A stretch of 42,062 nucleotides of DNA from Dongibacter bovis (GTDB taxonomy: Bacteria; Bacillota; Negativicutes; Selenomonadales; Selenomonadaceae). Below are positions 23,625 to 26,286 of this stretch, in pieces. Both the position numbers and the translations under genes were made by a program. A model generated the notes under the pieces. That model was not told the DNA's origin. It ran no database searches and saw only the letters and a list, made by a program, of their open reading frames with translations. Numbering within the stretch: position 1 is the stretch's first letter; every line of letters starts with the position of its first letter. The stretch covers positions 1-42,062 of the forward strand of contig CACWQW010000017.1 in the NCBI GenBank assembly GCA_902763085.1. The letters run 5' to 3'.

Positions 23625-24578
23625 ATGGCAGCAGAAACGTCAGGAGATAAGAAAGGCATTCTCCTGGAATCGGGAACGAACGAGTTCGAGATTGTCGAGT
23701 TCAGCATCGGCAAGGTTCATTACGGCATCAATGTCGCCAAGGTGCGCGAGGTCATCACGCGCACGCCGGTCACGGCGATGCCGCAGGCACATCCCTACAT
23801 CGACGGCCTGTTCACGCTGCGCGGCAAGGCAATCCCGCTCGTGAACCTGCCGCGCTGCCTCAACGTGCAGACGGATGAGGAGCCGAAGAACATCATCGTG
23901 ACGGAGATCAACAACTACAACATCGGCTTTCTCGTCGGCAACGTCTCCCGCATCCACAGGATCTCGTGGAAGGACATGGAGCCGGCGCCGGAGGTCGGCG
24001 ACCAGTCGCGCGTCGTCGGCATCGTGAAGATGAAGGACCGCATCGTGCTCTTGCTCGATTTCGAGACGATCATCGCGGAGATCAATCCGGAGATCAACGC
24101 GAAGCTCACGACGGTCGAGGAAGCGGCTGAGGACACCAAGGACAAGCGCGCGAACGTCCACGTCGTCGTGGCGGAGGACTCGCCGATGCTGCGCGACCTG
24201 CTCGTCACGACGCTGCACGAGTCGGGCTACCGCTTCGTGCGCGACTTCGGCAATGGCCAGGACGCCTGGGACTACCTGCAGACGCTCGCGGCGAAGGAAG
24301 GCCCCATCGAGGACCACGTCCGCATCATCGTCTCCGACGTCGAGATGCCGAAGATGGACGGTCATCGCCTGCTCAAGCTCGTGCGCGCCGACGACCGCCT
24401 GAAGGACGTGCCGTTCGTGCTCTTCTCCTCGCTCATCAGCGAGGAGATGCGCATCAAGGGCGAGCAGCTCGGTGCCTCCGGCCAGATCTCGAAGCCGGAG
24501 ATCAACCAGCTCATCGACCTCCTCGACAACCTCGTCTTCGGCAAGCCGCTCAAGGACGAGAGCAGTGACGAGGAATAA
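23625..24578 (+). CDS. cheV: CheV-type chemotaxis adaptor (CheW domain plus receiver)
   Basis: 317 aa. An N-terminal CheW-like domain (about 20-160: EFSIGKVHYGINVAKVREVI, GLFTLRGKAIPLVNL, VVGIVKMKDRIVLLLDFE) couples receptors to CheA. A C-terminal receiver domain follows (about 183-310), with the acidic pocket EDS, phospho-acceptor aspartate in IIVSDVEMPKMDG, and S/T and K in FSSLI and ISKPE. Phosphorylation by CheA would give adaptation. The start is not preceded by an ideal binding site (GGGGGCG). A TCCGATAA box at 23481-23488 resembles a sigma-28 -10 element, but no matching -35 is present. Confidence 0.92.
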   Translation: MAAETSGDKKGILLESGTNEFEIVEFSIGKVHYGINVAKVREVITRTPVTAMPQAHPYIDGLFTLRGKAIPLVNLPRCLNVQTDEEPKNIIVTEINNYNIGFLVGNVSRIHRISWKDMEPAPEVGDQSRVVGIVKMKDRIVLLLDFETIIAEINPEINAKLTTVEEAAEDTKDKRANVHVVVAEDSPMLRDLLVTTLHESGYRFVRDFGNGQDAWDYLQTLAAKEGPIEDHVRIIVSDVEMPKMDGHRLLKLVRADDRLKDVPFVLFSSLISEEMRIKGEQLGASGQISKPEINQLIDLLDNLVFGKPLKDESSDEE

Positions 24579-24589
24579 AATAAGAGAAA

Positions 24590-24610
24590 GCCTGCCAACA
24601 GGCGGCAGGC
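24590..24610 (-). terminator. Hairpin 1 of a convergent terminator cluster
   Basis: GCCTGCC (24590-24596) pairs with GGCAGGC (24604-24610). On the minus strand it is followed by TTTCTCTTATTTTATT, making it a plausible final terminator for a minus-strand transcript. Confidence 0.55.
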
Positions 24611-24616
24611 ATTAGG

Positions 24617-24653
24617 AAATGAGCCCTGCGGCAACTGCCGCAGGGCTCATTTT
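24617..24653. terminator. Hairpin 2: bidirectional terminator after cheV
   Basis: AAATGAGCCCTGCGGC pairs perfectly with GCCGCAGGGCTCATTT (16 bp) around AACT. T4 follows on the plus strand. It stops cheV transcription and could also act on the minus strand. Confidence 0.85.
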
Positions 24654-24675
24654 GTATGCGTTTTTCGGACAGCAA

Positions 24676-24704
24676 ACGACCCTGCACATCTGGCAGGGTC
24701 GTTA
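24676..24704. terminator. Hairpin 3 at the end of the candidate ncRNA
   Basis: AACGACCCTG pairs perfectly with CAGGGTCGTT. On the minus strand a short TTTG follows. Hairpins 1 and 3 are both adjoined on the plus-strand side by a similar TTAGGAARTGA string, hinting at duplication. Confidence 0.55.
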
Positions 24705-25217
24705 GGAAGTGATTGACATTCAATCGGTACCTCGTTATTCATTTGTCTGTCCGCGGCGACTCTCGAGGGAAGTCGCGGACTGTATGCGATGCCTCGCGAA
24801 ACAATTAACACATCGGACGAATCGAACGACAGCCGACATCGGCGGAACCATGGGTACGATGGGTTAACGCGGGGAACCTGGGGCCTAGGAATCCAGATCC
24901 TCCGATAGAAAGGAACACGGCACATGCATTCTTGCGGTCTCTGACTGGCGTGCGTCTTTCAATCTGCCATATAGCTTCGAGAACGTCCGGCGTCCGGCGG
25001 ACCGGACATCGTGACGCCTTACAGTGCCTCGATGGCGTTTGCTTCCTTCACCTGTGCACCCGTGCGTCAGAGGGGGTCGAAAGAATGGTGAACGGTATCT
25101 GCAGAATCATCCACATCCTTTCCTCAGATTGAAGAGAGCCTCTTTCGGCGGGCACCTGCCGAGGTCATTGCCCTCCAGGACTCCGTCTCCTCGGTGGTTT
25201 GCTCTTCTCTTCTTGCA
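24676..25217 (-). ncRNA. Candidate structured non-coding RNA (~540 nt), family not recognised
   Basis: No convincing protein gene exists between 24579 and 25446, the largest non-coding stretch here. A good minus-strand promoter predicts a transcript starting near 25217 that runs towards the three hairpins after cheV. Its 5' part can fold as a junction: AGAGC near 25201-25205 with GCTCT at about 25135-25139, and inside it CCGAGG (about 25189-25194) with CCTCGG (about 25158-25163). Further hairpins are GTCCGG/CCGGAC (about 24985-25008), ACGCC/GGCGT (about 25014-25040), CATCG/CGATG (about 24834-24862) and GTCCGC/CGGAC (24748-24780). Base composition is unlike the coding regions. I could not match tmRNA, RNase P, SRP or 6S features. 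Confidence 0.4.
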
Positions 25218-25222
25218 CCTTT

Positions 25223-25251
25223 AGTATATCATGAAGCACGATGAAATACAA
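25223..25251 (-). promoter_or_regulatory. Minus-strand sigma-70-type promoter for the candidate ncRNA
   Basis: Read on the minus strand: TTGTAT (25251-25246), 17-nt spacer, TATACT (25228-25223). Five of six -10 bases and three of six -35 bases match, at ideal spacing, and no open reading frame follows. Confidence 0.6.
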
Positions 25252-25446
25252 GCAGTTTGCGAGAATTTTCGCGCGGTTTTTGTATTCCTGCATTCTGTTT
25301 CTTGTATGCAGGATGCAGGGAAGTGTGGCGGCGCGACTTCTGCCGAGGGAATGATAACAAATCCGCGCTTCCTTTTCGCGCGTCTTCTATTGTATAATGG
25401 AGCGGGAATGTGATGTGGAAGCGGGCTGATGGATGGAGGCTGTGAA

Positions 25447-26286
25447 ATGAAGCGATTGGTTGTGATACGCAGCGGCGGCGAGATGGCGACGGGCATCGCG
25501 CTCACGCTGCATGCGGCGGGGTTTCGCGTGCTCATGCTCGAGCGGGCGCTCCCCTCGGCGACGCGGCGCGAGGTCACGTTTTCCGATGCGGTCTACGACG
25601 GGACGAAGACGGTGGAGCGCGTGACCTGTACGTTCACGAAGAGCAAAAAGGAGGCGGAGAAGCTCCTGAAAAAGGAGGAGATCGTCATGATGGTCGATCC
25701 CGCGGCGACATCGGTAGCCGATTTCCGCCCACAGGTACTCGTCGATGCCATCCTCGCGCACAGGAACCTCGGCACGACGCGTGCGATGGCGAAGCACACG
25801 ATCGCGCTGGGGCCCGGATTCTGCGCGGGGCGTGATGTGAACGCGGTCATCGAGACGATGCGCGGGCACAATATGGGGCGCATCGTCTACGAGGGCTACT
25901 CCCTGCGCAGTCAGAAGGATCCGAGCGCGGAGGTCGATGTGGACGAGACGCGCGAGCACATCGTCTTCGCGCCCGCCGCGGGGCGCATCGAGTCGCTGCG
26001 CAGCATCTCGTTTCTCGTCAAAAAGGGCGAGTCGATCGCCCACATCCATGCGGGCGGCGGCATCGTCGAGGTCAAGGCGCCGTTCGACGGCGTGCTGCGC
26101 GGCATTATCCACGACGGCTACGAGGTCTACGAGGGCATGAAGATCGCCGATGTTCATCCGACGATGTCGCAGGGCGAGTGCTTCACGATGTCGGACAAGG
26201 TGCGATGCGTCGGCGGTTCGGTGCTCACGGCGATCATGCACTGGGAGGCCGGGAATTTCAAGCGCCACCACCTGCTGCCGGTCTGA
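25447..26286 (+). CDS. yqeB: YqeB/EF2563-family protein (selenium-dependent molybdenum hydroxylase system)
   Basis: 279 aa. The N terminus LVVIRSGGEMATGIALTLHAAGFRVLMLE is a Rossmann-like start. Later come GPGFCAGRDVNAVIETMRGHNMGRIVYEG and a C-terminal biotinyl-like barrel (LVKKGESIAHIHAGGGIVEVKAPFDGVLRGII). This matches the EF2563 family, found with genes for selenium-dependent molybdenum hydroxylases. The exact reaction is unknown to me. The ATG at 25447 has GGAGG about 7 nt upstream. A TATAAT at 25393-25398 is the likely -10. No xdh, yqeC or selD neighbours are present, so it is isolated from its usual partners. Confidence 0.85.
   Translation: MKRLVVIRSGGEMATGIALTLHAAGFRVLMLERALPSATRREVTFSDAVYDGTKTVERVTCTFTKSKKEAEKLLKKEEIVMMVDPAATSVADFRPQVLVDAILAHRNLGTTRAMAKHTIALGPGFCAGRDVNAVIETMRGHNMGRIVYEGYSLRSQKDPSAEVDVDETREHIVFAPAAGRIESLRSISFLVKKGESIAHIHAGGGIVEVKAPFDGVLRGIIHDGYEVYEGMKIADVHPTMSQGECFTMSDKVRCVGGSVLTAIMHWEAGNFKRHHLLPV

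Follow-up and report, generated by a model that had tools for sequence, protein, structure and literature searches.

To our knowledge, few bacterial RNAs as large as the one considered here are known, and most of them lack a known function. Two of the large ornate RNAs, ROOL and GOLLD, are often borne by phage or prophage. Both form homo-oligomers via kissing loops, some of which covary as palindromes (PMC12286853). In OLE (RF01071), a loop tetranucleotide switches among GGCC, GAUC and AGCU, the sign of a symmetric kissing loop between molecules; this palindrome-switch argument has been used for OLE L9.3 and GOLLD L21a, both of which cryo-EM has shown to be kissing loops (PMC12286853). A tie of OLE to translation has been proposed as well, through bS21 and a mimic of the Shine-Dalgarno (SD)/anti-SD interaction (PMC12054373). 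The RNA that we describe here resembles OLE in its size near 600 nt, its occurrence in Bacillota in the broad sense and its apparently stable, ornate fold, and it has covarying palindromic loops like those of ROOL and GOLLD, known here from sequence alone.

The locus lies on the minus strand of a 42,062-nt stretch of Dongibacter bovis DNA (contig CACWQW010000017.1; this whole stretch is referred to as the window), in the gap between two plus-strand genes, yqeB (25429-26286, TIGR03309 match; start near 25448) and, with its end at 24578, one of CheW/CheY type (CheV-like). An earlier reading, made from the letters of the window without database searches (the sequence-only reading), had proposed that this gap holds no credible protein gene and instead encodes a candidate structured RNA, about 540 nt long and not yet described, at 24676-25217. 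We found no conserved protein gene in the gap, and the proposal of an RNA is upheld by the lack of an Rfam match, by conservation in relatives and by covariation. The unit delimited by blastn homologues and covariance models opens at the inferred transcription start, about 25216, and closes with the terminator stem at 24675, within a few bases of the borders first given. The promoter (25223-25251, minus strand), as read from the sequence, consists of a -35 element TTGTAT (25251-25246), a 17-nt spacer and a -10 element TATACT (25228-25223), and we placed the transcription start near 25216 because of these positions and this spacing. The promoter had been called in the earlier reading, and the call stands insofar as the elements are readable and homologues share their position and spacing (TTGCAA-17-TATAAT, closer to consensus than in the window), although a consensus promoter scan did not flag the window's own -35. 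At the other end, an intrinsic terminator (AACGACCCTGC...GCAGGGTCGTT, 24703-24675, minus strand) was identified by folding the sequence, and it occurs in the same place in those homologues that were read. Two further hairpins at 24590-24653, one a near-perfect inverted repeat (24653-24616) and the other at 24610-24590, complete the three-hairpin 3' end that had been proposed. Both are strong and sit between the RNA terminator and the convergent CheV-like gene. The minimum folding energy of the 542 nt was -184.4, compared to -183.1 +/- 6.7 for shuffled sequences (z = -0.19), and there was thus no excess. Given that folding energy is no better than in shuffles, the many local hairpins emphasized earlier are no evidence in themselves, but those of the 5' domain and of a 3' hairpin do covary. 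We take the case for the RNA to be carried by conservation and covariation, not by energetics.

A search of the whole window against Rfam 15 returned no family at or above the gathering threshold, and permissive Rfam scans of the RNA region and nine diverse homologues gave no meaningful match, so the locus belongs to no Rfam 15 family. The E-value-level Rfam matches were dismissed as chance microRNA-like hairpins. As a structured RNA containing a short open reading frame (ORF) that is predicted to engage ribosomes, the new RNA is reminiscent of tmRNA; however, it has no tRNA-like part, and each of its ORFs comes with an SD and a start codon of its own. ARAGORN found no tRNA-like domain in five homologues, and a separate tmRNA is located at G000:C66:333-677 in the genome of the window, so identity with tmRNA was rejected. 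Identity with RNase P RNA was likewise rejected given that each genome has a P RNA match elsewhere (G000:C16:12738-13075 in the genome of the window, a sub-threshold match with the type B model). The sequence-only reading had recognized neither RNA at the locus, and both indeed lie elsewhere in the genome. OLE homology was also rejected, as its core motifs are absent and the RF01071 model had no matches in the three genomes searched (G000, G016 and G022). Within our phylum sample, 110 of 149 genomes contained OLE, yet no sampled member of the window's family did; the spread of OLE is far wider than the name "extremophilic" implies. The suggestion that ROOL, OLE or GOLLD might be relatives survives as analogy, via the covarying palindromic loops, but not as homology, given that no model matched; the three are analogues of the new RNA, not homologues. 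Neither open PMC text nor Rfam 15 contained a described class matching the RNA, and within that scope its conserved features define a previously undescribed class of large structured RNA in Selenomonadaceae.

About 50 genomes from 15 genera, all Selenomonadaceae, carry a homologue that has a promoter and a terminator of its own, and no homologue was found in the rest of the class. The named carriers include Selenomonas ruminantium HD4, S. ruminantium ATCC 12561 and S. montiformis. The comparison with relatives by BLASTN that had been suggested for this locus recovered homologues in 22 of 189 family genomes, including all seven of the window's genus and, by short conserved pieces, other genera. 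R1, a covariance model built on the 5' part, detected the RNA in 44 of the 189 family genomes and had no matches in 398 phylum genomes outside Selenomonadaceae. An improved model (R2) matched 51 of 380 class genomes, including one false positive (L110 in G656), which was rejected as a homologue. A weak model match in another genus (L109, G025:C1:377441) combines a start resembling a promoter with a far longer region that looks like a transcript, and may be an enlarged version of the RNA. The RNA is single copy in all genomes except G200, in which copies are found at G200:C1:226061-226193 and G200:C21:17508-17640; the second may reflect contamination (4%) or duplication. None of the viral contigs, phages or plasmids searched by exact pattern or blastn gave a match, on which ground a phage or plasmid origin was rejected. 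In contrast to ROOL and GOLLD, the new RNA is chromosomal, at loci amid metabolic genes. The upstream neighbor in most genera is a divergent yqeB, or selD in one lineage (L018, named from its translation by eye), and this repeated adjacency to selenium-related genes could reflect function or inherited order. Downstream, the usual neighbor is a convergent gene of the TatD-linked radical-SAM type (also read from its translation by eye), the CheV-like gene in the window is convergent too, and some members of the window's genus instead have, in the same direction as the RNA, rpsB (named by eye) or an acetolactate synthase gene.

The conserved architecture begins with a 5' domain (25131-25212, minus strand). 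Three helices are stacked at the extreme 5' end, of which P1 (25212-25206:25137-25131; GARGRGA:UCUCUUC) is the first. P2, exemplified across homologues by GAUAC:GUAUC, is reduced in the window's genus, and P3 (25194-25189:25164-25159) reads CCGAGG:CCUCGG in the window and varies to CUAGAA:UUUUAG or GCAGG:CUUGC. A hairpin, P4, follows (GCC-GAAAGA-GGC at 25149-25138; GCC-GAAACA-GGC in homologues). In the R2 alignment of 43 homologues, 91.9% of the cells of this domain were paired, and 106 cells were changed on both sides, compared to 33.1 +/- 5.4 in shuffled alignments and 15-38 with partners slid; such changes affected all eight pairs of P3 and five of the six pairs of P2. The R2 alignment is biased toward its own structure; counts from a plain MAFFT alignment gave the same answer. 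This covariation shows that the predicted four-helix 5' domain is real. RNAalifold on a first alignment (A1) returned only 10 invariant pairs, with P1-P3 misaligned by MAFFT, and a hand-built structure was used instead. An unguided R-scape-like screen of the full MAFFT alignment yielded one clear pair in the 3' part (543/563 in the L009 row, with the states C-G/G-C/T-A/A-T), and it gave only that pair because MAFFT misaligned P1-P3. The check for covariation proposed with the original candidate thus gave a positive answer in the 5' domain and in the stem of the 3' hairpin. At full length, the RNA measures about 480-620 nt and varies in its middle part. L105, a minimal form of about 300 nt, retains the 5' domain, both SD-ORF pairs (SD1/ORF1 and SD2/ORF2) and the terminator and is missing the palindromic 3' domain; L106-L108 have neither ORF2 nor the 3' domain, and the g19 forms have the 5' domain and ORF1 with no clear ORF2. 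In one species of the window's genus (L002, G005:C11), a hairpin-rich insertion of about 137 bases lies between P1 and SD1, and the remainder is intact.

Loop palindromes and two mini-ORFs are features that were absent from the sequence-only reading. The first palindrome is the central CGCG (24798-24795) of hairpin H1 (GTTTCGCGAGGC, 24791-24802, minus strand, identified by alignment). This tetranucleotide is self-complementary in 30 of 30 sequences, in the forms AGCU, GGCC, CGCG, CUAG, GAUC and GGCU (with G-U), so that its pairs switch among A-U, G-C, C-G and G-U. Four-base loops such as those of H1 are small for kissing. The second is CTCGAG (24767-24762), in the loop of a 3' hairpin at 24749-24780 (minus strand), the stem of which carried 24 double changes, compared to 7.9 +/- 2.4 in shuffles. 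The loop is mostly CUCGAG, changes to CUUAAG in two genera and to UCGCGA in two more, some shifted by one, and is broken or weakened in L070 and L072. The HIV-1 dimer initiation site (DIS), a stem with an 8- to 10-nt loop in which a six-base palindrome is flanked by purines, dimerizes by kissing; the likeness of the 3' hairpin to it is confined to this single element, with no common origin. Combined, the palindromes showed 14 double changes, compared to 2.3 +/- 1.4 in shuffles, and their positions were 94.7% paired, compared to at most 55% when slid. A third, upstream palindromic site takes the forms GUGUACAC, UGUGCACA, GUGCGCAC, GCGCGC, UGCACGUGCA and UGAUGCAUCA and is enriched over shuffles (Fisher p of about 8e-8, with the sequences treated as independent); it seems to have been lost in the window's genus. 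Given that directly neighboring bases cannot pair within one chain, covariation within a palindrome suggests that two copies of the RNA pair with each other. At the level of sequence, the new RNA thereby keeps symmetric palindromic loops through changes of their letters, the behavior of the OLE, GOLLD and ROOL type. We strongly infer that these are symmetric intermolecular kissing loops, which would join the RNA into a homodimer or a larger oligomer.

The two mini-ORFs lie near the two ends of the RNA. 3' of P1, homologues carry a near-invariant extended Shine-Dalgarno tract, GAAAGGAUGUG, that is almost perfectly complementary to the 16S 3' end (GGATCACCTCCTTTCT, as read in relatives), and the window's version, SD1 (GAAAGGATGTG, 25112-25122, minus strand), matches the exact complement in 10 of 11 letters. 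A candidate conserved pairing, GUCCU:AGGAU, would mask SD1; it is invariant or, in several lineages, broken. The spacing from SD to start is long, about 10-13 nt. ORF1 follows SD1. In other genera, it consists of TTG, 8-13 codons and a stop (TAG or TGA), and TTG is the start in 20 of 24 lineages. The frame is weak in the window's genus, where CTG or ATT stands in place of TTG and two genomes have an in-frame ATG; in the window, the aligned codon is CTG (25104-25102), and the frame found by comparison (25048-25110, minus strand) reads ATG ATT CTG CAG ... TGA, with 20 codons from the ATG. From start to stop, ORF1 measures 27, 36, 39 or 42 nt (9, 12, 13 or 14 codons), with 54 nt (18 codons) only in the window copy. 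Its interior letters are hypervariable, and its end moves by multiples of three, the frame staying free of stops. The frame is open in all 24 lineages (shuffle probability of 1e-6, the lineages not being fully independent), compared to the +2 frame, which closes within five codons in seven lineages. One homologue (L071) has lost both canonical ORFs.

ORF2 (ATG TCA ATC ACT TCC TAA, encoding MSITS; 24702-24719, minus strand) is preceded by SD2 (ACGAGG, 24730-24735, minus strand; a purine-rich SD takes this place in homologues), and its stop abuts the terminator stem. In 19 of 24 lineages, the ATG is followed by four codons and a stop; the lengths seen elsewhere are 6, 7, 8 or 10 codons, and one lineage has no ORF2. 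TAA, TAG and TGA all serve as stops, and hardly any two lineages share a peptide (MSITS, MVSTV, MFIND, MVNYV, MLLNY, MTIKR, MANQK and MSIHG). Both mini-ORFs, each with SD, start and in-frame stop, are thus conserved by their frame and not by their letters. Given that the peptides vary while the lengths are conserved, selection appears to act on reading and not on the peptide, and it seems to be the act of translation, that is, ribosome docking, transit and release, that is selected. In the window copy, the ORF2 ATG lies inside the loop of a GATTGA/TCAATC hairpin, the arms of which covary by eye within the window's genus (GAUUGA/UCAAUC, GACUA/UAGUC and GACUAU/AUAGUC). This hairpin may tune initiation, and part of the ORF2 region could be structural in that genus.

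We considered that the RNA could be a purely noncoding, homo-oligomeric ornate RNA that behaves like OLE or GOLLD, with SD-like tracts and mini-ORFs that are incidental or structural. The strong covariation and palindrome switching would be expected of such an RNA, and the ORF2 start within a covarying hairpin in the window's genus and the loss of ORF2 from minimal forms also favor it. However, it leaves unexplained why ORF2 keeps its five-codon length with three types of stop and nearly all-different peptides, why the ends of ORF1 move in threes without an in-frame stop and why the match to the 16S 3' end is near-invariant, and we regard it as unlikely, though deserving of some weight. An ordinary mRNA for one or two micro-peptides would account for two ORFs that are each preceded by an SD, but the peptide sequences are hypervariable and structure and conservation extend over most of the RNA beyond the ORFs, which makes this reading hardly credible.

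The own promoter and terminator, together with two short ORFs with SDs, would also suit a dual-function regulator, either a trans-acting small RNA or a sponge for ribosomes or tRNA. Five-codon minigenes generally promote peptidyl-tRNA drop-off, and on this explanation the minigenes would sequester ribosomes or drop peptidyl-tRNA and the palindromes would serve RNA stability only. The new RNA is far larger and more structured than such regulators, though, and the symmetric switching of its palindromes would need another explanation; we consider a regulator of this kind rather improbable, and that division of labor between minigenes and palindromes improbable to a similar degree. The ORF2 stop touches the terminator stem as in an attenuator, and rpsB or the acetolactate synthase gene lies co-directionally downstream in part of the window's genus, as would be expected if the RNA were a cis-acting leader in which the terminator-abutting mini-ORF controls read-through. 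The downstream gene is convergent in the window and in most other genera, however, and rpsB has its own promoter 3' of the terminator. Because neighbors are convergent in most lineages and downstream genes bear promoters, we rejected the cis-regulatory leader, which has very little chance of being correct.

Comparison of the homologues demonstrates the boundaries, the 5' domain, the covarying 3' hairpin, the 16S-matched SD, the terminal mini-ORF and the switching palindromes, and it argues strongly for ribosome initiation at SD1/ORF1 and SD2/ORF2. The explanation that we tentatively prefer, with confidence that falls somewhat short of even, is a stable homo-oligomeric RNA that would dock ribosomes through its translated mini-ORFs and would be coupled to translation. 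Such an RNA would form a stable scaffold that assembles into multimers through its palindromic loops, and ribosomes would open or occupy it at two places, one beside the 5' domain and the other beside the dimer hairpin and terminator. Assembly or partner binding could then track how actively the cell translates or how stressed it is. By analogy, we propose a role resembling the one suggested for OLE with bS21, reached by different parts, and assembly is plausibly coupled to translation status in this way. A fuller version, in which the RNA is a self-assembling particle unlike described classes, its two mini-ORFs dock ribosomes and its oligomer state reports or stores translational capacity, is possible but doubtful.

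In summary, our study adds to the large ornate RNAs a class that joins covarying palindromic contact loops with two frames conserved in length and not in sequence. Given that the RNA occurs in the culturable Selenomonas ruminantium, its oligomerization and its engagement of ribosomes are directly testable. If the preferred explanation is true, self-assembling RNA and ribosome docking would be united in one molecule, and the RNA of Selenomonadaceae would bear on the purpose of large ornate RNAs and on whether they sense translation.
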